NCBI GenBank assembly: GCA_003139735.1
Contig: PLGA01000122.1
Location: 7,884 to 22,813 of the forward strand
Direction of reading: 5' to 3'
Length of the DNA: 14,930 bases
DNA from: Bryobacterales bacterium
GTDB lineage: Bacteria > Acidobacteriota > Terriglobia > Bryobacterales > Bryobacteraceae
Shown: positions 1 through 11,860 of the stretch, piece by piece
Layout of the letters: each line of letters opens with the position of its first letter
Numbering within the stretch: the stretch's first letter is position 1
Notes under the pieces: generated by a model
Told to the model about the DNA's origin: nothing
Database searches by the model: none
Seen by the model: the letters and a program-made list of their open reading frames with translations, nothing else
Translations under genes and position numbers: made by a program

Positions 1-651
1 CAGGAAGAAGTGGCGCTGGGGCTCGAAGTACTGCTGACGGGAATGAGTTATCCGGACCCGTTGTGGCCCTCGCAGCAGCCGAGCGTCAGCCGGGTGGTGG
101 TGACGCCGGCGCTGAGGCTCTGGCATAGCTACCGCGCCCTGGAGATGGTCTACGCGGACGCATACAACAGCCAGTTGAACGACCGGTATGCGGGCAAGCG
201 GGACCAATTCCATTCGATGACGAGCTGGGCTTACGAGAAGCTGGTTCAAATTGGGGTCGCGATGGTACTCGACCCCATCCCCCGGGCCGTCATGCCGGCC
301 TTGACGGCAGTGGCGGCCGCATCCACTCCGCTTCCGGACGGAACCTACTACGCGACCATGGCGTGGGCCAACCAAGCCGGCGACGAGGGGGCGAGCGCGG
401 TTCCAAATACCGTCTCGACAACCAGCCAAACACTGATGGTCCAGCCCATCAATCCGCCTAAAAACGCGGCGGGATGGAACGTGTATTTGGGGAGCGGCCC
501 CGATTCGATGTTCCGGCAGAATGGGACGCCGATCGGGACCGCACAGAGCTGGACTCAACCCGGTACGCTGGCGGCGACGGGCCGGCGGGCGGGACAGGGG
601 CAAACTCCCAACTACATCAAACCGGTTCCAAGAGTGCTTCGGAGGGGCTAA
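1..651 (+). CDS. Phage connector-region protein with FnIII-like module (5' partial)
   Basis: The frame is already open at base 1 (it reads Q-E-E-V), so the true start lies upstream; the GTG at base 10 is only the first possible start inside the window. The N-terminal half is helix-like, with motifs such as LWHSYRALEMVYADAYNSQL and YAGKRDQF, which I associate with phage head-tail connector-region proteins. Roughly residues 105-195 form a beta-rich FnIII-like module (LPDGTYYATMAWA, then GWNVYLGSGPDSMFR and SWTQPG). A similar module occurs in the hub encoded at 5209-9069. Its stop overlaps the next start (TAATG), and the next gene looks like a tail terminator, which fits a role in joining head and tail. 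The exact role is inferred from position; it could also be a minor virion protein. Confidence 0.6.
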   Translation, partial: QEEVALGLEVLLTGMSYPDPLWPSQQPSVSRVVVTPALRLWHSYRALEMVYADAYNSQLNDRYAGKRDQFHSMTSWAYEKLVQIGVAMVLDPIPRAVMPALTAVAAASTPLPDGTYYATMAWANQAGDEGASAVPNTVSTTSQTLMVQPINPPKNAAGWNVYLGSGPDSMFRQNGTPIGTAQSWTQPGTLAATGRRAGQGQTPNYIKPVPRVLRRG

Positions 652-1133
652 TGACACAGAAGATAGGGAGCGCGATCAGCGACCAGATCATTCAACTGAT
701 TGTCGCGCCGGCGGGCGCCAATGCGACGCTGGCGGCGCTTTCGGCGGGGACGCTGGACCCGGCGCAGGTACGCGCGCAAAACGTGGCTCCAGACCTGATG
801 GAGCGCAGCGAAACGGTCAACTATCCGGCGGTCAACGTGTATTGCGAAAAGCTGGTGAACGCCTTGAAGGAGAAGTCCCGGAGCTTCTCCGGCTCGGCCC
901 AGATGATGGTGGAGGTGCGGCACTCCAGCGACCGGTTGGAGGGTCTTCAGGACGCTCTGGAACTCTATACGGACGCGGTGACGGAGACGCTGAGCGCGAG
1001 CCGCGGCGATTGGGGCAATGGGATGTTCTACGCAGGCGGATACGAGGTATCGTTCGCCGCGGTGAAGCATGGCGGCAGGAATTTCATACAGACGGCGAAG
1101 ATCGCCCTCGAGATAGGAGTGAGTATCAACTGA
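651..1133 (+). CDS. Tail terminator / tail completion-like protein (160 aa)
   Basis: I chose ATG 651 because GGAGG lies just upstream and the ATG overlaps the previous stop; the same frame is open further upstream but only as a shadow of the preceding gene. The 160-aa product has the look of a compact tail-terminator fold. There is a conserved-looking stretch YPAVNVYCEKLVNAL (about residues 58-72), then RHSSDRLEGLQDALELYTDA, RGDWGNGMFYAGGYEV and a basic GGRNFIQTAK segment, ending in IGVSIN. In lambda-type gene orders the protein capping the tail tube is encoded directly before the tube protein, and that is its position here. The function is inferred from position and recalled family resemblance. 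A head completion protein is the main alternative. Confidence 0.55.
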   Translation: MTQKIGSAISDQIIQLIVAPAGANATLAALSAGTLDPAQVRAQNVAPDLMERSETVNYPAVNVYCEKLVNALKEKSRSFSGSAQMMVEVRHSSDRLEGLQDALELYTDAVTETLSASRGDWGNGMFYAGGYEVSFAAVKHGGRNFIQTAKIALEIGVSIN

Positions 1134-1134
1134 C

Positions 1135-2343
1135 ATGTCCTCGTACATTTCGTCTAACGCAAACCGATTCTACACGGCATTGGAGAGCGCCTACGGCAAC
1201 GTAGCGGCGGTCACCTCGACGAACCGGATTCCCGCCTTGAAGCTGGCGGTGGCGCAGCAACTGGAAGTTACCACGCGGAAGGACAAGACCGGCACCCGGA
1301 CGTTTCCGGGCCTGCCGGCGGGCGGCAGGCTGCGGACCGCCTTCGAGCTTCGCACATTTCTGACGAGCTGGCAGCAGGCGGCGGGGCCTTCCAACAACGC
1401 GCCCTCGCCCGATACGTTGCCGGGTCCGGCGTACGGACCGCTGTTCCAGGCGGCGTTGGGCGGCGCGCCGCTGGAATTCGCGGGCGGAACGGTGGCTTCG
1501 AGCACGGGAACCGGAAGCCTGGTTTTTCAGGCGGCGCATGGTCTGGCGGCGGGACAGGCGGTCAGTTGCGGCGGAGAGATCCGGTTCGTGGCGGCGATCG
1601 CGAGTGCGACCGCCGTGCAGTTGAACGCGCCGTTCACGGTTCTGCCGGCGGCCGGCGCGGCGGTGGCGCCGACGGTCACTTACGTTCCGGCGACGGAGCT
1701 GCCGAGCGTGAGCGTCTACGACTACTGGTCGCCGGCGACGGCGGTGCAGAGGCTGCTGTGCGGGGCGGCTATCGACCAGATGGACATCCTGTTGAACGGG
1801 GATTATCAAGAATTCCACTTCAGCGGGATCGCGCAGGATTTGCTGGACAGCGGGAGCTTCAGCAGCGGGGAAGGGGCATTGGCGAGCTTCCCGGTGGAAC
1901 CGGCGCTGGGCGCGTTCGATTACTCGATCGTGCCGGGAAACATGGGCGAGGCGTGGCTGGGCGCGTCGCCCTCGCAGTTCTTCACGATCACCGGGGGAAC
2001 GGTGACGCTGAAGAACGGGTTGGCCACGCGGGCCAAGGAATTCGGGACGAACCTGCCGCAGGCGATTATGCCAGGGGTGCGCACGGTGACCGCGGCTTTC
2101 GAACTCTACAGCATGGACGACAGCGCGACCATCGGGCTTTACCAGGCGGCGCGGCAGCAATCGCCCATCAGCGTGATGTTCCAGTTGGGGCAAGCGCAAG
2201 GGCTGATGATGGGGGTCAACATGAACAGCGTGATCCCGGAGGTTCCGGAGTTCGAGGACGGGCAGAACCGGCTGCAGTGGAAGTTCCGGGGATCGCGGGC
2301 GCAGGGGACCGTGGACAACGAGATCACGGTGGCATTCGGGTAG
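1135..2343 (+). CDS. Major tail tube-like protein with inserted beta domain (402 aa)
   Basis: This gene starts one base after the previous stop, with AGGAG at 1115-1119 as a rather distant ribosome site. It sits between a terminator-like gene and a chaperone gene, the usual slot of the major tail protein that polymerises into the tail tube. The C-terminal part is typical of tube proteins: MDILLNGDYQEFHFSG, then SPISVMFQLGQ, VPEFEDGQNRLQWKFRG and a terminal EITVAFG. Residues about 120-185 (SLVFQAAHGLAAGQAVSCGG onward) look like an inserted small beta domain, perhaps surface-exposed on the tube. At 402 aa it is longer than lambda gpV, which the insertion would explain. Its last codons are copied in the duplication immediately downstream. 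Confidence 0.6.
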   Translation: MSSYISSNANRFYTALESAYGNVAAVTSTNRIPALKLAVAQQLEVTTRKDKTGTRTFPGLPAGGRLRTAFELRTFLTSWQQAAGPSNNAPSPDTLPGPAYGPLFQAALGGAPLEFAGGTVASSTGTGSLVFQAAHGLAAGQAVSCGGEIRFVAAIASATAVQLNAPFTVLPAAGAAVAPTVTYVPATELPSVSVYDYWSPATAVQRLLCGAAIDQMDILLNGDYQEFHFSGIAQDLLDSGSFSSGEGALASFPVEPALGAFDYSIVPGNMGEAWLGASPSQFFTITGGTVTLKNGLATRAKEFGTNLPQAIMPGVRTVTAAFELYSMDDSATIGLYQAARQQSPISVMFQLGQAQGLMMGVNMNSVIPEVPEFEDGQNRLQWKFRGSRAQGTVDNEITVAFG

Positions 2344-2466
2344 AAAGAACTTGACGCGGAGACGCAGAGACGCAGAGAAGAGCCTATAAGAGGTTCGGCA
2401 TGCTGGGTGGATTTGTGGCGCTTCCCGCGGGCCGGGCGCAGAGGGAGCAGAGGGGATGACTTACGA
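2328..2466. repeat. Tandem duplication, copy 1 (139 bp)
   Basis: This unit runs from the last codons of the tail-tube gene (GGTGGCATTCGGGTAG) through a spacer rich in GACGCAGAGACG to a copy of the first codons of the downstream chaperone gene (ATGACTTACGA). The next unit begins immediately at 2467. The two copies match almost perfectly, apart from a short patch near 2373-2383 that includes a 2-nt length difference and two single-base changes near 2423-2432. Because the unit joins the end of one gene to the start of the next, it looks like a tandem duplication of the former intergenic spacer with a few codons on each side. Confidence 0.9.
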
Positions 2467-2482
2467 GGTGGCATTCGGGTAG
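2456..2482 (+). other. Duplication-born minigene, 8 codons (MTYEVAFG)
   Basis: At the duplication junction, ATGACTTACGAG (the first four codons of the chaperone gene at 2723) runs in frame into GTGGCATTCGGGTAG (the last four codons and stop of the tail-tube gene). The resulting 8-codon frame reads MTYEVAFG. A GAGGGA at 2441-2446 would be a suitable ribosome site. It is probably a by-product of the duplication rather than a functional gene, but it fixes the mechanism and the reading frames involved. Confidence 0.5.
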
Positions 2483-2594
2483 AAAGAACTTGACGCGGAG
2501 ACGCAGAGACGCGGAGAAAAACGTTTATAAGAGGTTCGGCATGCTGGGTGGATTTGTGGCGCTTACCGCGGGTCGGGCGCAGAGGGAGCAGAGG
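2467..2594. repeat. Tandem duplication, copy 2 (128 bp matched)
   Basis: This is the second copy of the unit at 2328-2466. It again carries GGTGGCATTCGGGTAG, GAAAGAACTTGACGCGGAG, GAGGTTCGGCATGCTGGG and GCAGAGGGAGCAGAGG. The offset is 139 bases in the first part and 141 after a 2-nt insertion. Similarity stops at 2594, just before where copy 1 has its relic chaperone start. From 2595 the sequence is different and contains the inverted copy of the GACGCGGAG motif. Confidence 0.9.
2489..2520 (+). repeat. 32-bp inverted repeat, left arm (GACGCGGAGACGCAG type)
   Basis: This arm begins CTTGACGCGGAGACGCAGAG and ends GCGGAGAAAA. It is the exact reverse complement of 2645-2676. The motif is itself built from near-repeats of ACGC(G/A)GAG. 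A slightly variant direct copy begins at 2350 in duplication copy 1. Confidence 0.9.
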
Positions 2595-2644
2595 AAATGG
2601 GGTAGACCCGAGCCGAACTTGACGGGATCAACCCTTATGGGCGG

Positions 2645-2676
2645 TTTTCTCCGCGTCTCTGCGTCTCCGCGTCAAG
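2645..2676 (-). repeat. 32-bp inverted repeat, right arm
   Basis: This arm begins TTTTCTCCGCGTCTCTGCGT and ends CCGCGTCAAG, a perfect 32-base reverse complement of 2489-2520. The two arms enclose 124 bp. A fold across the pair would produce a long hairpin in the transcript between the tail-tube and chaperone genes. Confidence 0.9.
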
Positions 2677-2722
2677 AATTCTGCGCGGCAACCCGAGGGT
2701 CGGGAGCGAAGGGGATGGGTTC

Positions 2723-3088
2723 ATGACTTACGAGAGTTCGAGGGTGGTGGAATCGGCGGTTACGGCGGGGGTGCGGTACACGGTGGCGAAGATGTCGTTT
2801 GCGCGGCGGGTGGACTTGATGCGGCAGGTGCGCGAATTGGCGCGGCGGATGGAGTTTCTGGAGGCGGGCGGCGGCGCGGGCGGAAAGATGGATGCGGCGC
2901 TGCTGCAGAAGGAGATCGACCGGCTCTACCTGACTTGGGGTTTGCGGGAGATTGCGGGTTTGGAGGTGGATGGAGCGGCAGCCACGCCGGAGACGCTGGC
3001 GGGAGCGGGGCCGGAGGATCTGTTTCGAGAAGCGCTGGCCGCGGTGCGGGCGGAGACGGGGTTGAACGAGGCGGAACGAAAAAACTAA
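2723..3088 (+). CDS. Tail assembly chaperone, short form (gpG-like, 121 aa)
   Basis: ATG 2723 is preceded by AAGGGG at 2709-2714 with good spacing. The 121-aa product is helical and polar, with SFARRVDLMRQVRELARRME, LYLTWGLREIAGLEVDG and a helical C-terminus. I recognise the DRLYLTWGLREI-type motif only as phage tail-associated. It lies directly after the tube gene. In lambda-like phages this place belongs to the chaperone that coats the tape measure, made as a short form and as a -1 frameshifted long form. The last sense codons here are CGA AAA AAC before TAA, a classic slippery arrangement, and a -1 open frame continues to 3438. This supports the chaperone identity more strongly than the sequence alone does. 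Confidence 0.65.
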   Translation: MTYESSRVVESAVTAGVRYTVAKMSFARRVDLMRQVRELARRMEFLEAGGGAGGKMDAALLQKEIDRLYLTWGLREIAGLEVDGAAATPETLAGAGPEDLFREALAAVRAETGLNEAERKN

Positions 3089-3438
3089 TTGTCGCCTTCC
3101 AGTTTCAGTTTTCCAACCAGGCCGGTTGGAAGTGCGACGCCTGCCGGAGATCCGGTCTGGAGCAGAAGCGGCGATGCGGATGGCTGGCGCGCCCGGAGGG
3201 GACGGGCACGCCGCTGGTGTGGGCGAGGAGGGGCGCCTCGCTCACATCCTGTCCAAAGTCGTACGTAACGGGAGACAGCCTGACGCTGGTGGAGGAGTTT
3301 CTGGTCCGGCGGCGGGTTGGAGGGACGAGCTTCGCGGAGCTGAGCGCCCGTCAAGTGGAGGCGTTCGCGATCCTGGAAAACGAGCTTTCGGCGGAAACAA
3401 GAAATGGCCAAAACCACACAAGAGAAGTTGCTCGGTAG
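2723..3438 (+). CDS. Frameshifted tail assembly chaperone, long form (gpGT-like, 238 aa)
   Basis: Joined coding region: 2723-3085 in the zero frame, then 3085-3438 in the -1 frame, with base 3085 read twice. The shift adds 117 residues to the 121-aa chaperone. The extension is protein-like: a cysteine-bearing part (GWKCDACRR at 15-22 of the extension, then RRCGW and TSCPKSYVT) followed by a helix-forming part (SLTLVEEFLVRRRV, LSARQVEAFAILENELSAE). Four cysteines spaced C-x2-C-x10-C-x24-C could bind zinc. The -1 frame lacks an ATG, GTG or TTG near its unique portion, so independent initiation looks poor. In lambda the gpGT extension recruits tube subunits while the G part holds the tape measure, and I infer the same division here. 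The product overlaps the next gene by 35 bp. Confidence 0.6.
3079..3085 (+). promoter_or_regulatory. Programmed -1 frameshift site A AAA AAC
   Basis: The heptamer A AAA AAC is in the exact phase required for tandem slippage: the zero-frame codons are CGA-AAA-AAC followed at once by the stop TAA. A GAGG at 3068-3071, 7 nt upstream, could serve as an internal Shine-Dalgarno stimulator, as at E. coli dnaX. A perfect 8-bp hairpin lies at 3111-3131, but it starts 25 nt after the heptamer, which is farther than usual. The -1 frame stays open to the TAG at 3436-3438. Confidence 0.7.
3111..3131 (+). promoter_or_regulatory. Perfect 8-bp hairpin downstream of the frameshift site
   Basis: The arms TTCCAACC (3111-3118) and GGTTGGAA (3124-3131) are exact reverse complements around a 5-nt loop. 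The hairpin lies inside the -1 frame extension. It may support frameshifting or act on mRNA stability, but its distance from the slippery site leaves the role open. Confidence 0.45.
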
Positions 3439-4078
3439 TTTCATGGAGGCGGCGGGCGGCGAACGGACCGATGCGTTGGCGGCGCGGGCGGAGACCGAGG
3501 AGCTGGCGGCCTTGCTGGCGGAAACCGCGTCGCAAACGAGCGGCGCAGGCGAGGCCGGAGCATCCTCAGGGGCGCTGCCGGCGTTCGAAAGCGGCATGGC
3601 TCCGGGGCCGGCAAAGACCGAACCGGAGGCCGCTTCGAAGACAACCAACAGCGGCGGCGGAGTGACGGTGGGTTCGGTGGCCAAGACGGTTCTGGAGAGC
3701 GGGCTCGGTCTGATTCCGTTGATCGGGGGGTTAATCGGGTTATTCAGCGGCGGGGGATCCGAGTCACCGGCGCCACTGACGAAGTACGTCATGCCGCCGT
3801 CACTCGATTTTCAGGCCGCCGACAGCGGCGGAGCATTGACCAGCGTCAGTTACGACCAAATGGGAACGGCCAGGGCGCTGGGCGGATCTTCGACGAGCGC
3901 GGGAGGGTCCGCCGGCAGCGTCTCGAGCGAAGCGGGGGCGGCGCCGGCGCAGACCACGGCGAACGCACAGACACTCGATGCGCGGTGGTTCATGGACCAT
4001 AGCGCGGACATCGCGGCGGCGGTACGAAACGCAATGCTCAATTCCAACTCGATTAACGACGTGGTGAACGATCTATAG
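3404..4078 (+). CDS. Short protein in tape-measure position (224 aa), function uncertain
   Basis: ATG 3404 lies inside the end of the frameshifted chaperone frame, with only a weak GGCGG-type ribosome site. The N-terminal 55 residues are alanine- and glutamate-rich and predicted helical (MEAAGGERTDALAARAETEE). Next comes a low-complexity Gly/Ser/Pro region. A hydrophobic stretch around residues 94-115 (TVLESGLGLIPLIGGLIGLF) follows, then a serine/glycine/alanine linker and a C-terminal helix ending SINDVVNDL. It occupies the slot between chaperone and distal-tail genes where the tape measure belongs. It is far shorter than a usual tape measure but near the size I recall for the GTA tape measure. 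The hydrophobic segment would suit membrane contact during DNA delivery. I cannot assign it firmly. Confidence 0.5.
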   Translation: MAKTTQEKLLGSFMEAAGGERTDALAARAETEELAALLAETASQTSGAGEAGASSGALPAFESGMAPGPAKTEPEAASKTTNSGGGVTVGSVAKTVLESGLGLIPLIGGLIGLFSGGGSESPAPLTKYVMPPSLDFQAADSGGALTSVSYDQMGTARALGGSSTSAGGSAGSVSSEAGAAPAQTTANAQTLDARWFMDHSADIAAAVRNAMLNSNSINDVVNDL

Positions 4079-4080
4079 CC

Positions 4081-4440
4081 ATGGCGACCTTCCCCAAATT
4101 GAAAACCAATGCCGTGATGCAGTATCCGGCGACGCGGAACGTGCGCTACCAGAACCAGGCGTTACGCTTCCTGGACGGGACGGAACAGCGGTACCAAGAC
4201 TGCGCCGGGCCGCTTCACGGATGGGAGATTCCGCTCAGCCAACTGGACGAAGGCGAAGTGGCGGCCATCGAGCAGTTCTTCGAGGACAACCAAGGGGCGT
4301 TTGGAAACTTCGCATTCACCGATCCGTGGGACGGAACGGTGTATCCGAGTTGCAGCCTGGAGACGGACACGCTGCAAACCGCGGCCAGCGGAGAGATGGA
4401 CGGGGCGACGGTACTGAGGGTGGTGGAGAACCGAGGATAG
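4081..4440 (+). CDS. Distal-tail type protein, first paralog (119 aa, DUF2460-like)
   Basis: The ATG sits 2 bp after the preceding stop. The 119-aa product has a beta-rich N-terminus (FPKLKTNAVMQYPATRNVRY), then LDEGEVAAIEQFF (55-67) and a GNFAFTDPWDG motif (75-85). An EQFF...QG..F.F.DPWD pattern is what I associate with DUF2460-type and distal-tail proteins that join the tube to the hub. The same pattern recurs at the same residue numbers in the next protein, showing that the two are paralogs. It probably forms a ring at the distal end of the tail. Family assignment is by recalled motif only. Confidence 0.55.
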   Translation: MATFPKLKTNAVMQYPATRNVRYQNQALRFLDGTEQRYQDCAGPLHGWEIPLSQLDEGEVAAIEQFFEDNQGAFGNFAFTDPWDGTVYPSCSLETDTLQTAASGEMDGATVLRVVENRG

Positions 4441-4442
4441 GC

Positions 4443-5225
4443 ATGCTGACGTATCCACAACTTGGAACGGGCGCGCTGAGCCAGTTTCCGATTCGGACCG
4501 AGCGGCGCGCGCGCACGGTGATGAACGCGGCGTTGGACGGAAGTTCGATCAAACTGGCGGACGCGGCGGGAGCGACGACGGAGTGGGCGTTGAGCTACAC
4601 GGGCCTGTCGGACGCGGAACTGGCGGCGCTGGAGCAATTCTTCGCCTCCGCGCAAGGCAAGCTGAACGGGTTCACGTTTCTCGACCCGGCGGCGAACCTG
4701 CTGGCCTGGAGCGAGGCGCCGGGACAGGCGGCCTGGGCGCTCGATCCGCAGCTTTCGATCACCAGCGGGATCGCGGACCCGGCCGGCGGATTGGCAGCGT
4801 GGAGTTTGACGAATAGCGGCGCGGGGCCGCAGACGATCTCGCAAACGCTGGCGGCGCCGGGCGGATACAAGTATTGCCTGAGCGTCTATCTGCGCGCGGC
4901 GGCTGCTGCGACGGTTACGATGCTGCTGGGGAGCGGCCAGGCGAGCCAAGCGGTTCAAACGCAATGGAACAGGTTCGTCTTCGCGGGGAGCGGAGACGCG
5001 GCGGCGGCCGAGATTTGTTTTGGGTTGCAAATTCCGGCCGCCGCTCAGGTAGAGGTATACGGGATGCAAGCGGAACCGCAGGCGGGGGCATCCGTGTACC
5101 AGGTGAGCACAAGCGGCGGAGTCTACCAGAACGCGCGTCTACGGGACGACCAACTGGCGGTCACGACCACGGGCGTAAACCGGCATTCCTGCACGGTGAA
5201 CATCATCTATGTCAACCATCTATAG
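4443..5225 (+). CDS. Distal-tail type protein, second paralog with jelly-roll-like extension (260 aa)
   Basis: I chose ATG 4443, two bases after the previous stop; the same frame is open upstream only as a shadow. Residues 1-85 parallel the preceding gene, with LSDAELAALEQFF at 55-67 and FTFLDP at 77-82; 14 of the 28 residues from 55 to 82 are identical without gaps. The remaining 170 residues are new. They resemble a beta-sandwich or carbohydrate-binding-like module (YCLSVYLRA, WNRFVFAGSG, EVYGMQAEPQAGASVYQVS), followed by a C-terminal strand pair. The gene overlaps the hub gene by 17 bp, so translation is probably coupled. I infer a distal-tail or tail-tip ring subunit bearing a sugar- or host-surface-binding extension. 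Confidence 0.5.
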   Translation: MLTYPQLGTGALSQFPIRTERRARTVMNAALDGSSIKLADAAGATTEWALSYTGLSDAELAALEQFFASAQGKLNGFTFLDPAANLLAWSEAPGQAAWALDPQLSITSGIADPAGGLAAWSLTNSGAGPQTISQTLAAPGGYKYCLSVYLRAAAAATVTMLLGSGQASQAVQTQWNRFVFAGSGDAAAAEICFGLQIPAAAQVEVYGMQAEPQAGASVYQVSTSGGVYQNARLRDDQLAVTTTGVNRHSCTVNIIYVNHL

Positions 5226-8200
5226 TCTGACGGAGCAGGCGATCACGGACACGCCGCTTCTGCTGTTCGATTGCACGCTGGCGAACGGGCATACGGAAAG
5301 CTGGTGTACGCACGGAATCACCGTGAATGGCAAGGCGTATGCGGCGCGGGTGCTGGAACACAGCGCGTTCGAGATGCAGCCGGCCTCGGCGCAGGGGGTG
5401 GACGGGCTATCGCAGATCTCGATCGTGCTGGCGAACGCGGATTCGTATTTTTCGGAGCTTGAGCAGTCCATCGGTTTCAAGGGCGCGCGGCTGACGGTGA
5501 GTTTTCTGATTTACAATCTGCCGAATCAGACGGCGGCGAGCGCCACGGCGGCGCTGTTCCAGGGAATCTGCAATCCGCCGGACGAGATTCTGGAGGCGAC
5601 GCTCCGGCTGACGGCGATCAACCGGATGAGCTTGCAGAGGGTGCTGCTGCCGCAGGTGCGGATTCAGCGGACGTGCCCGTGGGATTTTCCGGCGACCGCG
5701 GAACAGCGCACGGAAGCGGTCAACGGAGGAAGCAACGGGCAATATTCGCTGTACTACCGCTGCGGATACTCGGCGGACATTGCGGGCGGCGCGGGAAACC
5801 TCGACGGCGGCGTTCCGTACACAAGCTGCGGATACACGCGGAGCGACTGCCAGGCGCGGGGGATGTGGGGGAATTTCGGCGGCCTCGAATTCGTGCCGGC
5901 GTCCATCCTGGTGCGGCCCGCGGGGGGAAACGTGCAGGCTTCGGCGATCAGCCTGAACACGGCGCTGTACAACGATTTCGTGCCGATGGTGTACGGGACG
6001 GCGTGGTACGCGCCCCCCATCGTGTTTGCGCGCAACGACGGCAATCTGACGAGGATGCAAGTCCTGTTGGGGATCGGCGAGATGCAGGCGCCGCTGATCG
6101 TCCTGGTCGACGAGTTGCAGATTCCGCTGGGCATCCCCGGCGCCAACATGACGGCTACCGGGTGGTACAACGTCCAAAGCCTCGGACAGCGCACGGGGCA
6201 GTTCGACGCCAACTTTCCGGGCGGCGATCCTTACGGAAGCATGGCGTACCTCTCAGTGGTGGTTCCAAACCAGATCAACAATGGGACGACGCTGCCCAGA
6301 ATCAAGGTGCTGGCGCAAGGGCTGACGATTCCCATTTACGACGCGACAGGCGCGCAGACAGGCGCGCAATTCAGCAACAACCCGGCGTGGATTCTGCTGG
6401 ACATATTGCGGCGACTGGGCTGGAGCGCGGCGGAGATCGACATGCCAAGCTTCGCGGCGGCGGCGGCGGACTGCGACCAGCAGATCGACGCGCTGGACAT
6501 CTACGGCAATGCGATTTCGCTCGGCCTGTTCCAGTGCAACATGGCGCTGAAGACCAGGAAGAGCGCCGGCGACGTGGCGCGCGGGGTGCGGATCACGGCG
6601 CGGCTGTTGTTGACCTACAGTAGCACCGGACTGCTGCAGCTTCGCGTGGAGGATGCCATCGCCAACGAGCAGCCCACAAAGCCCGCGTGGTCTAACAGCA
6701 CGGAGCCCCTCAACGGCGGCTGGCCGAATTACGAGTTTGGAGACGGCAGCACGGGCGTTACCGGAATCCTGCGGCTGCCGAGCGGAGCGCCGAGCGTGCG
6801 GGTTTATTCGCGCAGCATGGCGGACACCCCGAACAGTCTCAGCGTGGAGTTCCAGGACTCGCTGAACGACTACCAGCAAGACAGCTACACGGTGGCCGAT
6901 GCTAACGATGTGACGCTCTGCGGGCAAGAGATTACGGCGAGCCTGAACGCGATAGGGCTTCCGAATAACGACCAGGCGGGGCGCATCCTGCAACTGAACC
7001 TGAACAAATCGGTGCTGGGCAACACGTACATCGAATTCCAGACGAGCGTGAAATCGTTCGGGGTGCGGCCGGGCGACATCATCACAATCACGTACCTCAA
7101 AGAAGGGTTCACGCGGCAGCCGTTCCGTATTTTGAAAATCGCTCCTGGGATCAATCACCGCGTGACGACGATCACGGCGCAGATTCACGACGACGCCTGG
7201 TACGCCGACAGCAACGGGCAGCCCACTTCGGCGACGGGAGGGCGGCGGCAGAGCGACGCGAGCACGGGCGTGCCGCGGCCGCTGATCGGCACCGTAGTGG
7301 ACGCCAATGGGAATCTTGAGTTCGGGGTGACGGAGGCCGACGATATCAGCAGCGACGGCTCGGTCCAGGTCACCGTCACGGTGAGTTACGTTCCGCCCGC
7401 CACGAGCGCGGAGGCGGGTCCGGGCATCCCCTTTGTGAGCCTGTCGGCGGCAGTGGCGCCCGGTGGAACGCTGGCGAGCGGCCAGGTTCTGTACTACGCG
7501 ATCTCGGCGCTCGATTCGGCGGGAAATGAAAGCGGGCTATCGTTCCTGGTGACGGCCGGGATTGCCAGCAGTGGAAGCGCGGTTACGCTGACGGGGCTGA
7601 GCTTCGATCCGAATACGGCGGCTTTCAACGTCTATCGCGGCCTTTCTCCGGCGGAACTGTACCGGATTGCGAGCGGCCAGGCCAACGCGGCCCAATTTAC
7701 CGACCCGGGACTTCCGCCGCTGCCCATCGCGCCGCCGGACCCGAATTTCGATCATGCGAATTTCTACTGGCGCATGGAACTGCTGCCGGAGACGGCGGCG
7801 ACCCTGTACTCGGCCAACACGGTGGGCAACGGAACGCTCAACATGATGGCCAATGCGTATAGCGGCATGACGGCGCGGATCACGCGGGGGACCGGGGCGG
7901 GACAGGAAGCGACGATCGGGTCAAACACGGCGACCACGCTGACGGTATTGCCGGGGTGGGTGGTGGAGCCGGACGCCACCAGCTATTTCGTGGCGGCGGT
8001 GAGCGGCTGGAACCCCGGCGCGACGACCACCAGCGCGACGGCGCAATTCGCGATTCCGAACTGGTCGGGCGAGGTGGCGCAGATTACCGGGCGCGCGGCG
8101 AACGTCAACAACGTGGAATGCGACCCGGGGATTTCGACGGTCACGCGCTGGCAGATTGGCGGGTTGGGGGACGCCGGCATTCCGCCGCAGCCGCTCTTCG

Positions 8201-9069
8201 GGCTGGGGAACGGGGCGCAGGGCGGGACCGTGGCGTTGAGCGGCGTGGCATTCCACAACCTGACGAACACGCGGTCGATATCCTCGGCCACGCTGACGAT
8301 GTACTACTGGAACGAGCTGCTGGGCACGCCGGGAATCACGCTGGCGAACGCGGTGGGAGCGGCGGACAGCACGATCAACCTAAGCCAGCCGGGGCCGGGG
8401 CAGCCGGGCGCCTATCTGCAGATCGACGGCGAAGTCATGTGCGTGACAGCCACGCTCAACAGCGGAGCCACTTACCAGGTGACGCGAGGATGCGATGGAA
8501 GCACAGCCACCGCGCACACGGCGGGGCCGGAGCCGCTTTACCATCTGGCAAGCACGAGCGCGATCGCGTCGTTTCCACCCGAGTTCTTCGGGAGCCCCTA
8601 CAGCGGGAGTTGGACCTTCCCGGTGATCCTGCCGGATGTGCGGGTGGCAAGCGCCGAGCTGATTGTGACTAACAACAAAGGAAACAGCCCGACGGGCAGC
8701 ATTGCGCTGACCCAGACCACCGATTTAGGACTGCGAACGACCTCCGGCGGACAATACACGATTCAGGTGGATGGCTTTCTGGCGGTAGACCAATACGCGG
8801 CTCCAGCCCTGGTGATGGATGCCTCGCACGCGGTTCGCGAGATTTACGCGGTGCTGGGCACGGCGGCGGATGCGGCGGTGCAACTGCAGTTGAACGTCAA
8901 CGGGAACCTATACTGCCCGCTGACTTTCGCGGCCTCGGCTTCGGTGTCCAATAGCGTGGCGGGCAATACGCTCGCGCCGCTGGCGGCCGGCTCGCAGGTG
9001 ACTCTGGCGATACTCTCGGTGGGGCAAACGTATCCGGGCGCCGATTTGACGGTATTGATTCGGATGTGA
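5209..9069 (+). CDS. Tail hub: fused gpL-like (Fe-S cysteines) and gpJ-like protein (1286 aa)
   Basis: The start at 5209 overlaps the previous gene by 17 bp. Residues 1-230 resemble lambda gpL / DUF2163-type hub proteins: a beta-rich start, then four cysteines C156, C185, C207 and C214 and the motif CQARGMWGNFGGLEFVP (214-230). The C-x6-C pair followed by F-G-G is the pattern of the gpL iron-sulfur site. Residues about 255-480 resemble the gpJ N-terminus, with VPMVYGTAWY, NPAWILLDILRRLGW (391-405) and AAADCDQQIDALDIYGNA. Residues about 500-670 contain further hub-like strands (FGVRPGDIITITY). Residues about 735-835 are an FnIII-like module (FNVYRGLSPAELYR), and the C-terminal third holds several small beta modules. 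Lambda makes gpL and gpJ as separate proteins; here they appear to be one chain. Confidence 0.65.
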   Translation: MSTIYSLTEQAITDTPLLLFDCTLANGHTESWCTHGITVNGKAYAARVLEHSAFEMQPASAQGVDGLSQISIVLANADSYFSELEQSIGFKGARLTVSFLIYNLPNQTAASATAALFQGICNPPDEILEATLRLTAINRMSLQRVLLPQVRIQRTCPWDFPATAEQRTEAVNGGSNGQYSLYYRCGYSADIAGGAGNLDGGVPYTSCGYTRSDCQARGMWGNFGGLEFVPASILVRPAGGNVQASAISLNTALYNDFVPMVYGTAWYAPPIVFARNDGNLTRMQVLLGIGEMQAPLIVLVDELQIPLGIPGANMTATGWYNVQSLGQRTGQFDANFPGGDPYGSMAYLSVVVPNQINNGTTLPRIKVLAQGLTIPIYDATGAQTGAQFSNNPAWILLDILRRLGWSAAEIDMPSFAAAAADCDQQIDALDIYGNAISLGLFQCNMALKTRKSAGDVARGVRITARLLLTYSSTGLLQLRVEDAIANEQPTKPAWSNSTEPLNGGWPNYEFGDGSTGVTGILRLPSGAPSVRVYSRSMADTPNSLSVEFQDSLNDYQQDSYTVADANDVTLCGQEITASLNAIGLPNNDQAGRILQLNLNKSVLGNTYIEFQTSVKSFGVRPGDIITITYLKEGFTRQPFRILKIAPGINHRVTTITAQIHDDAWYADSNGQPTSATGGRRQSDASTGVPRPLIGTVVDANGNLEFGVTEADDISSDGSVQVTVTVSYVPPATSAEAGPGIPFVSLSAAVAPGGTLASGQVLYYAISALDSAGNESGLSFLVTAGIASSGSAVTLTGLSFDPNTAAFNVYRGLSPAELYRIASGQANAAQFTDPGLPPLPIAPPDPNFDHANFYWRMELLPETAATLYSANTVGNGTLNMMANAYSGMTARITRGTGAGQEATIGSNTATTLTVLPGWVVEPDATSYFVAAVSGWNPGATTTSATAQFAIPNWSGEVAQITGRAANVNNVECDPGISTVTRWQIGGLGDAGIPPQPLFGLGNGAQGGTVALSGVAFHNLTNTRSISSATLTMYYWNELLGTPGITLANAVGAADSTINLSQPGPGQPGAYLQIDGEVMCVTATLNSGATYQVTRGCDGSTATAHTAGPEPLYHLASTSAIASFPPEFFGSPYSGSWTFPVILPDVRVASAELIVTNNKGNSPTGSIALTQTTDLGLRTTSGGQYTIQVDGFLAVDQYAAPALVMDASHAVREIYAVLGTAADAAVQLQLNVNGNLYCPLTFAASASVSNSVAGNTLAPLAAGSQVTLAILSVGQTYPGADLTVLIRM

Positions 9070-9076
9070 AATCGAC

Positions 9077-11860
9077 ATGGCGGAACAACTCACCAAGCTG
9101 CGGCCCGACCGGGACCTGCAATGCTACTTCTATCAACCGAGCGCGGTGGCGGCGTTGAGCGCGACCAGCCCGACAGGGTTCACGGTATCGGGATCGTTTC
9201 GCCAGCAGCTCGATTGGGCGGTGGTCGAGTGGTGTCGCGACAACGTCTTCGAACATCCGGCGCTGCGCTGCCTGCCGGACGGCGACCTGAGCGGCCTCCA
9301 GCTCTCCTGGGACGAGGAACGCCAGGATTGCATGGCGATGGACTGCACGCTGTGGCCGACAGTAGACTGGCCGTACCTGCGGATCTGGGCGACGGGAACG
9401 GACGGCGTCGAGCGGGAGTACAAGGTTCCGCTGGCGGCGAACGCGACGCCCGCGGCGGGGAGCCTGGCAGCGACGCCGGCGCAGGCAGTTTTCGAGCTCA
9501 CGGGCGCGGTGACGGCCAACGATTACGTGGAGCTGGCCTGGGCGGCGGCGGACGGCGTGGATCCATCGAGCCAGCACGCGACGCACATGATGTACTACAA
9601 CGACACGCTGGAAGGCGTGGCCACGCTACTGGCGAACGCGATCTCCGCGAACACCGCCGCGACGGGCATGACGGCTTCGGCGCTGGGAGCGCAGATTACG
9701 CTGCAGTACGGGGCCGCGGCGGGCGCCAACGGAAACCGGGTGGGGGTTTACGGCAATGTGAGCGGCGCGCGGACCGAAATCTGGCAGCCGGCGTCGCAGA
9801 CCATGAGCGGAGGAGCGTCGCCGGCGCTGTGGCATGTCGCGCTCAATTTCAGCAATCTGCAAGGATTCGTGGCGCCGGCTTTCACCACGCTGGTCCAGGT
9901 ACCGACAAACTCGGTGCGGAGGATGCGGTGGACGTGGGCGCCCGATCAATTGCCGGGCAACTTCGTACGGACCGAATTTCAGGTGACGGTCTCAAACTGG
10001 ACGGTGGCAGGAACAAATCTGACGTACCAGGTGGCGGGCCCGGGAAGCTGGCGCGCCGAAGACGCTTCGAACCTGGTAGTCTATTCGGGCGCATGGGACG
10101 CGCCGGCGATCGGCAACTATTCGGGCGGCTCGATTCGAACCACGGAGACGCCGGGGTCGTCCGTCTCGTGCACCTACACGGCGGCGGGGAACCACGCGCT
10201 GTACGTGGGGACGCGCATGTTCAACAGCGGCCTGGCGGCCGGCGCGCCGATTTCCATTACCATCGACGGCGCGACCAGCACGGCGAATCTGGCGTTCGCC
10301 GGCGAGGAGGATTTCCTAGTCCGGATCATGGTGGCCGAGCTCGCCGCGGGGCGGCACACCGTGACGGCAAAGCAGACCGGGAGCGGAGTCTTCTATTTCG
10401 ACTTTTTCGAGATCGCTCACCCGACAGCGAACCTGCCCACGATCGCCAGCACTCCGGACACGACGCTGGCGACCGACTGGGACACGTATCACTCCATCTG
10501 CCTTGCGCCGGAGCGGACCGCGTGGCTGATCGACACGCTCGGCTTCAAGGGGCGGGCGAACCATTATGCCGGCGCGATGTGGTTTAACGAACTGACGTGT
10601 CCAGGACAGCAGTACGCTTCGGCTACCGTGACGCTAGCGGGCACGCCGGATTTCGGCCTATACACGACGGTCAACATCGGTGGAACGCTGTTTAAGCACA
10701 TGAGCTTCATTGCGGACACGGCGGCGAGCGTGGCCAACGCGCTGGCGCTCGCGATCAACGCAGGCGCCACGGCGGTGTGGGCGAACGTAGCTGGCCTGAC
10801 GCTGACCATCCGGTCGCGCGCCATGGGGACGGCCGGAAACGGGATGAGCGTCGCCGCGGACACGGGCGGCAGCCAGAACCTTACCGCGGCGGCGAGCGGG
10901 CCGCTGGGCGGAGGCGTGGACGGCGACCTCTCGACGATGGCGTGGGCGGGGGGCTGGCGCACCGATCTGACTGCGGCGCCGCGCATCAACCGGGCTGCGC
11001 GCGACTGGCACTCCAGCTACTTCGCCGCCCTCAAGGGGTACGGCATCGACGTGGCGGCGGCGTTTTCCATGGAGCTTCAGGACGGCGACCCGCAACCGGC
11101 GACGGGGATTGCGCAGCGCTATCCCGACGGCGCGGCGGCGCTGCTCAATACGCCATCCCTTCAAACCAACTTTTCGCCGGCCAGCACGGCGTTCTGGCAG
11201 CAGGCCTACCTGGACATGGCAAACCTCATGAGCGCGGCGGGGCTGGTTCCGTACCTGCAATTCGGGGAAGTCCAGTGGTGGTACAACGCGTCGCCGGCGG
11301 GCATGCCGTTCTATGACGCTTACACGCAGAGCGCGTTTCAGACGGCATTCGGACGGCCGATGGGGATCATTCCCAGCCAGAATGCGCAGCCGGCGGACTT
11401 CCCGGATGAATGTGCCTTCCTGCCCACGCTGATCGGGGCATTCACCAATGCGATCGTGGCTTTCGTGCGGGCCGCGCATCCCAACGCCCGCTTCGAAACG
11501 CTGTACCCCGTGGACACGAACGACACGCCGTTGAATAAGATCGTCAACTATCCAACCGCGTCGTGGACCGCCGCGGCGCTGACCTGCCTGAAGACCGAGA
11601 ACTTCACTTTCACAGGCGACCGCGATCTGGACGAGGTGCGCGGCTCGATTGCATTGCCTGGGCAGCTTGGGTTCCCGCCGGCGCAGAGCAGCCACCTGGT
11701 GGGAATCAGCGATTACACGACGCCGTGGCTGAAAGAGAGAGGCTTGGCGCTGGCGAGCGGGGTGGAGTCGGTGGTATTGTTCGCACTCGACCAGTTCTGT
11801 TTGATTGGGTACCCAGCGCCGTTGAACAGGAGCTCGAGGCGGTCGGGAAAGATGGGGTAA
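9077..11860 (+). CDS. Tail fibre/receptor-binding protein with TIM-barrel-like C-terminus (927 aa)
   Basis: The gene starts 7 bp after the hub gene. By eye the order is: an N-terminal attachment region (1-120), an adhesion-type module (about 136-247), a beta region (255-315), a jelly-roll carbohydrate-binding-like domain (about 317-447, GNYSGGSIRTTETPG and HALYVGTRM), a second copy of the adhesion-type module (about 515-616, TAASVANALALAIN and GTAGNG) and a TIM-barrel-like region (about 640-905). In the barrel, LQFGEVQWWY places E731 like a clan-A glycosidase acid/base, and RFETLYPVDTN places E808 as a possible nucleophile. I infer a receptor-binding or surface-glycan-degrading tail protein. 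The short basic end (RSSRRSGKMG) is odd but may be natural. No exact glycosidase family can be named. Confidence 0.55.
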   Translation: MAEQLTKLRPDRDLQCYFYQPSAVAALSATSPTGFTVSGSFRQQLDWAVVEWCRDNVFEHPALRCLPDGDLSGLQLSWDEERQDCMAMDCTLWPTVDWPYLRIWATGTDGVEREYKVPLAANATPAAGSLAATPAQAVFELTGAVTANDYVELAWAAADGVDPSSQHATHMMYYNDTLEGVATLLANAISANTAATGMTASALGAQITLQYGAAAGANGNRVGVYGNVSGARTEIWQPASQTMSGGASPALWHVALNFSNLQGFVAPAFTTLVQVPTNSVRRMRWTWAPDQLPGNFVRTEFQVTVSNWTVAGTNLTYQVAGPGSWRAEDASNLVVYSGAWDAPAIGNYSGGSIRTTETPGSSVSCTYTAAGNHALYVGTRMFNSGLAAGAPISITIDGATSTANLAFAGEEDFLVRIMVAELAAGRHTVTAKQTGSGVFYFDFFEIAHPTANLPTIASTPDTTLATDWDTYHSICLAPERTAWLIDTLGFKGRANHYAGAMWFNELTCPGQQYASATVTLAGTPDFGLYTTVNIGGTLFKHMSFIADTAASVANALALAINAGATAVWANVAGLTLTIRSRAMGTAGNGMSVAADTGGSQNLTAAASGPLGGGVDGDLSTMAWAGGWRTDLTAAPRINRAARDWHSSYFAALKGYGIDVAAAFSMELQDGDPQPATGIAQRYPDGAAALLNTPSLQTNFSPASTAFWQQAYLDMANLMSAAGLVPYLQFGEVQWWYNASPAGMPFYDAYTQSAFQTAFGRPMGIIPSQNAQPADFPDECAFLPTLIGAFTNAIVAFVRAAHPNARFETLYPVDTNDTPLNKIVNYPTASWTAAALTCLKTENFTFTGDRDLDEVRGSIALPGQLGFPPAQSSHLVGISDYTTPWLKERGLALASGVESVVLFALDQFCLIGYPAPLNRSSRRSGKMG

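Follow-up and report, generated by a model that had tools for sequence, protein, structure and literature searches.

In phage lambda, the G/GT tail assembly chaperone region yields a short and a −1-extended product through a slip site of the form X XXY YYZ, placed close to where the first frame ends. In lambda and kindred tailed phages, this region follows a tail protein gene and precedes the tape-measure position. Frameshifting is widespread among tail chaperone genes, and usually the slip site alone is recognised. Some RNA viruses carry a stop codon beside their slippery heptamer, and these have a downstream RNA structure too. A stop directly after the heptamer is named for such viruses in the literature (PMC4373837). 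On bacterial ribosomes, IS3-family elements such as IS3411 shift frame with downstream structures that include loop pairing, and the Listeria phage PSA combines a pseudoknot in one gene with a stop in another (PMC5009743). According to the same review, some tailed phages seem to shift frame without any stimulatory signals. Measured tailed-phage chaperone shifts amount to 6-7% (PMC3711429). Here we examine 14,930 nucleotides (nt) of a Bryobacterales genome (contig PLGA01000122.1, positions 7,884 to 22,813 of the forward strand; hereafter the window), part of a 22.8-kb contig in a draft genome of 661 contigs. The window very probably encodes a programmed −1 frameshift signal in a putative tail assembly chaperone gene, by which some ribosomes would make, in a set ratio, a GT-type fusion of 238 amino acids (aa) besides a G-type chaperone of 121 aa.

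With lambda G/GT, the locus shares gene position, the predicted product pair and the type of slip site; it has in addition a conserved pseudoknot and an adjoining stop, and the −1 part has a four-cysteine core for which no matching family was found. By analogy, the signal appears to work like lambda G/GT with a viral-type stimulator added. It differs from the RNA viral signals in lying in a DNA-encoded bacterial tail gene unrelated to the viral genes, in its slip site (A AAA AAC) and in having the stop within a 5-nt spacer before the pseudoknot. The IS shift makes transposase, and PSA shifts to +1 in its capsid and tail shaft genes, not in a tail chaperone (PMC5009743). No description of such a signal was found in the literature that our search covered; paywalled articles, Xu et al. 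2004 among them, lie outside it.

The shift site consists of the following features:

2723..3088, + strand: first (zero-frame) part of the putative tail assembly chaperone gene, G-like, 121 aa (open reading frame; conserved protein, alignment A4)
3079..3085, + strand: slippery heptamer A AAA AAC, in phase (window sequence; locus comparison)
3086..3088, + strand: zero-frame stop adjoining the heptamer, an intercodon stop (kept across loci; Leu codon choice)
3085..3438, + strand: −1-frame extension of 117 codons with four invariant Cys (open reading frame; alignments A1 and A5)

The zero frame reads CGA (3077-3079), AAA (3080-3082), AAC (3083-3085) and TAA (3086-3088). After a slip, reading would resume with CTA from base 3085 and continue for 117 codons to the stop at 3436-3438, which gives 121 + 117 = 238 aa in total. 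A first analysis of the letters alone (the sequence-only reading) had described an in-phase A AAA AAC touching the stop of the chaperone gene and a −1 frame open for 117 protein-like codons; the site and the length are as it stated, and the second part turned out to be a conserved protein. In the mechanism we propose, the pseudoknot would stall the ribosome while tRNA-Lys and tRNA-Asn occupy the heptamer, the two tRNAs would re-pair one base back, and elongation would continue as R-K-N-L-I-V-A. The adjoining stop would end the short form, with the release factor competing against the slip and thereby tuning the ratio. As in lambda, the short form may coat the tape measure protein, while the long form may recruit the tail tube protein.

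Of 268 loci examined, we retained 208 that are distinct and have a readable site; these come from Acidobacteriota, mostly Bryobacterales. Left out were L026 (truncated), 52 duplicates, and L077, L248, L254, L264, L279, L282 and L283, in which the profile match does not begin at position 1; L077 and L248 have N letters at the slip site. Among 70 named relatives, most are labelled Bryobacterales, Bryobacteraceae, Terriglobia or Acidobacteria, with few others (e.g. one Acidimicrobiia). In IMG/VR, a relative of the second part is encoded in 551 of 596 matched stretches, of which the best 80 were retrieved. In L254 and in L264 and L279 (both in genome G170), the heptamer and a TGA stop are intact and the second part is split in two pieces that lie in different frames or places; these are possibly broken gene copies.

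Across the 208 loci, the in-phase site is A AAA AAC in 200, A AAA AAT in seven and G AGA AAC in one, so that AAAAAA is kept in the same phase in 207. The preceding codon specifies Arg in 195 loci and is then always CGA (138) or AGA (57), codons that together make up 20% of Arg codons in the same genes; AAA makes up 27% of their Lys codons. At the level of sequence, the conservation of the heptamer thus exceeds chance. The pattern of codon-position variability follows the zero frame upstream of the site and the −1 frame downstream of it (191 loci), and both gene parts, on either side of the site, are conserved as proteins. The sequence-only reading had proposed to align homologous loci, and had argued that relatives with the heptamer lost and both frames kept would speak for separate translation; such a pattern did not emerge, as 207 of the 208 loci keep A AAA AA[C/T] in phase.

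The downstream structure comprises two stems:

3091-3095 + 3097-3101, + strand: predicted pseudoknot stem 1, 5' arm (alignment folding, compensatory changes, recoding control)
3127-3131 + 3134-3138, + strand: predicted pseudoknot stem 1, 3' arm (same evidence)
3117..3125, + strand: predicted pseudoknot stem 2, 5' arm, inside the stem 1 loop (covariation scan, compensatory changes, recoding control)
3152..3160, + strand: predicted pseudoknot stem 2, 3' arm (same evidence as its 5' arm)

Alignment folding paired m+9..13 with m+52..56 and m+15..19 with m+45..49, where m is window base 3082. In the window, this corresponds to 3091-3095/3134-3138 and 3097-3101/3127-3131, a stem 1 of 10 bp that starts 5 nt after the heptamer, within the distance of about 5-9 nt at which a structure is expected for X XXY YYZ −1 signals. 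A covariation scan for 6-bp helices ranked first a pairing of the stem 1 loop with downstream sequence, which extends to 9 bp (stem 2). Both stems pair fully in the window (isolated duplexes, −16.1 and −16.4 kcal/mol), and the loop lengths (15, 1 and 13 nt) would allow an H-type pseudoknot. Codon choice behind the site is strongly constrained, with Val encoded by GTC in 99% of cases and a later Ala by GCC in 94% (background 17% and 22%). For pair counts, we chose 82 of the 192 in-register loci that differ by more than 17%. In these, 88.6% of the cells of the two stems are paired, compared with 33-45% when the register is slid, and both sides have changed in 74 cells, compared with 24.8 in shuffles; stem 2 alone has 79.0% of cells paired (21-53% slid) and 54 double-changed cells (20.1 in shuffles). 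Synonymous recoding that keeps the protein, applied to all 192 loci, lowered the number of pairs from 9.86 to 8.96 in stem 1 and from 7.95 to 5.88 in stem 2. In sixteen further loci, indels or sequence divergence affect the register residues, which puts these loci out of register. In 11 of them, the top helix corresponds to the outer part of stem 1, and a free search recovered a stem 2 that beats its recodings at 5% in six (L238, L243, L246, L271, L273 and L276).

Several results weigh against this structure. Stem 1 exceeds its own recodings at 5% in only four of the 192 loci (stem 2 in 112), because it is largely fixed by the protein. Counted as pairs with any double change, the signal is not clearly above shuffles (60/500 for both stems, 163/500 for stem 2), and slid versions reach 7 to 11 such pairs, one of them (11) exceeding the 9 of the true register. 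Stem 2 has six or fewer of its nine pairs in 24 of 192 loci; among the out-of-register loci, it stands at 5 to 20% relative to recodings in seven others and is no better than recoded sequence in L084, L275 and L277 (37 to 76%). Moreover, a 92-nt piece of the window folds at minimum energy into another, nested structure, whereas an 83-nt piece does form a stem-1-like helix. Taken with the compensatory changes and the recoding control, the alignments nevertheless indicate a conserved H-type pseudoknot 5 nt behind the heptamer.

The sequence-only reading had named two other possible stimulators. The first, a GAGG at 3068-3071, 7 nt upstream of the heptamer, is present in the window; 79 of 208 loci have it at the same place, with Glu codons ahead of the heptamer. 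As a Shine-Dalgarno-like stimulator it is not supported, since the mean longest match to the anti-Shine-Dalgarno complement is 3.52 nt in the natural sequences and 3.98 nt after synonymous recoding. The second is a hairpin starting 25 nt after the heptamer:

3111..3131 (arms 3111-3118 / 3124-3131), + strand: 8-bp hairpin (window sequence)

The hairpin is likewise present but does not hold as a conserved stimulator: all eight pairs are kept in only 21 of 192 loci (seven of eight in 69), and its bases are shared with both pseudoknot stems. It is a fold that competes with the pseudoknot. It may have a minor alternative role, the recoding control having covered the pseudoknot stems only. The distance of this structure had been regarded as an oddity, as had the stop touching the heptamer; the conserved pseudoknot begins 5 nt, not 25 nt, downstream, and the stop is itself a conserved feature.

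This stop lies directly after the heptamer in 175 of the 208 loci, one codon later in 28 and farther away in five (L020, L028, L029, L044 and L268). The first −1-frame codon encodes Leu in all 208 loci and is CTA in 26% of them, compared with 4% in the background. In the 26 loci with two successive Leu codons, the first is CTC or CTT in 22, and the second is CTA (22) or TTA (4) in every case, each of which creates the stop one codon later. Thus, the near stop itself appears to be selected. A stop at this position lowered frameshifting and conferred release-factor sensitivity in published experiments (a bacterial system; the HIV element in human cells) (PMC4373837), and these effects make a role in tuning the frameshift ratio more likely than one in stimulating it.

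The strongest competitor to such tuning, to which we give slightly less than even chances, is that the stop merely ends the short protein, while slip site and pseudoknot alone set the efficiency. The short form must end somewhere, and the stop could be a plain terminator. In addition, the heptamer occurs without a near stop in L020, L028 and L268, which do not belong to the family. The pseudoknot pair test counted L020 and L028 among its supporting loci, and in L268 the inner portion of stem 1 is retained; the stop is therefore not essential. Two weak matches from other families, L282 (E 6e-7) and L283 (E 9e-6), also have an in-phase site (A AAA AAC and A AAA AAA G, respectively) and no near stop. 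Because these out-of-family relatives have the slip site without the stop, the slip site looks to be the oldest part and the adjoining stop a later addition. A plain terminator fits less well with a stop that, maintained by codon choice, lies no more than two codons from the site in 203 of 208 loci; for phage chaperone shifts that have been annotated, this distance averages 26-36 nt (PRFect paper, PMC10885494).

A far less probable reading is that the second frame is a separate gene, with its own start or coupled to the upstream stop. We counted start codons in 88 loci. Some second-frame ATG, GTG or TTG occurs within 60 nt in 42, and the commonest, 27 nt upstream of the reference point, is found in 27 (GTG in 22, ATG in 5). 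None occurs within 60 nt in the other 46, however, and ATG in only eight, so that neither a generally conserved start nor the conserved start and ribosome site that the sequence-only reading had named as evidence for separate translation is seen. Moreover, the conserved second-frame protein starts at the slip site, and a separate gene would leave slip site and pseudoknot without a role. The extension is thus probably reached by frameshifting only. Its four invariant cysteines (CxxC...C...CP) belong to a domain without a sequence match or a convincing fold match.

Slippage of RNA polymerase on the A run, which would give mixed transcripts, is similarly improbable. The site is indeed a run of six A, longer in a few loci (10 A in L061), but it does not exceed six A in 201 of the 208 loci, and the 5-nt spacing to a conserved RNA structure suits ribosomes, not polymerase. 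Least probable of all is that the window shows a decaying prophage whose frame was broken by mutation or by misassembly: the window does come from a metagenome-assembled genome, but 207 of 208 distinct loci, drawn from many assemblies, show this arrangement, and the protein sequence is conserved both before and after the site.

Programmed frameshifting remains the reading that we favour very strongly, and comparison shows its sequence signal to consist of an in-phase A AAA AA(C/T), a stop no later than the second codon behind it and a putative H-type pseudoknot. Further observations count against the reading. A_AAA_AAC is reported to be much less slippery than A_AAA_AAG in Escherichia coli (PMC5009743), and the queuosine enzyme Tgt is present in 19 of 21 genomes of relatives. 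In addition, L013 (genome G020), the only one of the 208 loci with a changed heptamer (G AGA AAC), retains the adjoining stop; its site may represent loss, an alternative slip or an assembly error. The pseudoknot may be needed because the slip site is weak.

The sequence-only reading had placed the shift in a tail chaperone gene. The shift is well supported by the comparisons above, and the chaperone identity moderately so, from gene position and predicted fold. The 121-aa zero-frame part is modelled by AlphaFold2 with a pLDDT of 89.8. Arguing against the assignment, its fold matches to proteins named tail assembly chaperone are weak (E 0.08-0.3), 2OB9 ranks only 22nd in the fold search with a Z score that is middling by the tool's scale, and neither part has a credible sequence family match in Pfam, PHROGs or NCBIfam. 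Two individual sequences of alignment A4 hit, at E 0.09 and 0.19, PHROGs that bear the name tail assembly chaperone.

The genes around the putative chaperone are as follows:

1135..2343, + strand: upstream tail protein, probable tail tube (phrog_290 'minor tail protein', E 2.5e-7; same place in 8/8 genomes)
3404..4078, + strand: 224-aa open reading frame at the place of a short tape measure protein (relative there in 7/8 genomes)
4081..11860, + strand: tail tip genes, namely two DUF2460-like, a hub/J-like and a TIM-barrel tail protein (family matches)

The name tail tube follows from position, and the 224-aa product, which has no family match in Pfam, PHROGs or NCBIfam, may be the tape measure protein, given its position and a hydrophobic stretch. 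Upstream on the contig lie genes for TerL (phrog_2, E 6e-38), portal (phrog_145, E 3e-8) and capsid (phrog_283, E 1e-29), as well as a scaffold-like gene with a weak match (E 0.02); two small open reading frames in connector position precede the tail protein gene. The TerL-portal-capsid-tail cluster spans about 16 kb (L091:2879-7447 plus window 1-11860) and occurs in most of the family's genomes. Gene order from TerL to hub is identical in eight genomes of seven genera, with the open reading frame in tape-measure position matched in seven; the TIM-barrel gene follows the hub gene in six, has the opposite orientation in G180 and was not detected in G031. The gene at 9077-11860 closes this small tail cluster; its product matches PF23845 (E 3e-20), the TIM barrel found in non-contractile tail sheath proteins.

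Three copies of a short repeat (two direct, one inverted) lie at 2343-2720, in the stretch that separates the chaperone gene from the tail protein gene. This repeat has 55 matches with at most two mismatches in the same genome (28 forward, 27 reverse; control 0), several of them close inverted pairs, and it is an interspersed REP-like family that entered the structural operon. Along with the repeat, the end of the tail protein gene has undergone a local direct duplication (2328-2388 and 2467-2527, spacing 139-141 bases).

The −1-frame protein is present in 192 of 237 genomes of the window's family, which we infer to be Bryobacteraceae, with a single match in all but two. Among 61 relatives drawn more widely, it occurs in 34, and the capsid gene in 36 that include those 34. 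In a tree of 104 loci, built from the short protein without a host tree and with three loci omitted as duplicates, the nearest neighbour belongs to the same genus in 48 of 57 cases, and 14 of 19 genera are monophyletic. We found no flanking gene in a shared place across the genomes compared, and neither chaperone part was found in isolated phages.

Gene order in RcGTA, a gene transfer agent (GTA), resembles that of the cluster described here. RcGTA-type agents are likewise compact head-tail clusters, widespread in one bacterial family and nearly always present in one copy, and GTAs share with it DUF2460-like proteins and the spike-fibre domain NF048003; in the window, the C-terminal part of the DUF2460-like protein at 4443-5222 matches the NCBIfam model GTA_spike_fiber NF048003 above the cut-off (E 2.4e-13). 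The present cluster differs in being known from genes alone and in its capsid, which matches phrog_283, and the NCBIfam GTA megatron model matches at 18.2 bits, far below its 800-bit cut-off. GTAs are described as having proteins derived from tailed phages and mostly vertical inheritance, packaging random host DNA, being unable to package themselves and delivering DNA to cells (PMC9662315). Proteins derived from tailed phages are present here as TerL, portal, capsid and tail proteins. The cluster is a candidate gene transfer agent or resident prophage, and its gene content and distribution fit a family-wide resident element of the gene-transfer-agent type.

About 200 natural variants define a complete bacterial signal of slip site, adjoining stop and putative pseudoknot, with compensatory changes. 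They thus form a natural library suited to studying the joint control of −1 efficiency by a pseudoknot and an A-site stop on bacterial ribosomes, and they also bear on how bacteria can keep A AAA AAC. For the organisms themselves, the signal points to a phage-like element that a soil lineage has conserved. Tentatively, most Bryobacteraceae may carry a domesticated, vertically inherited head-tail particle, possibly a GTA, in which heptamer, stop and pseudoknot would set the chaperone ratio through competition between release factor and slip, and would so couple particle assembly to the state of translation.
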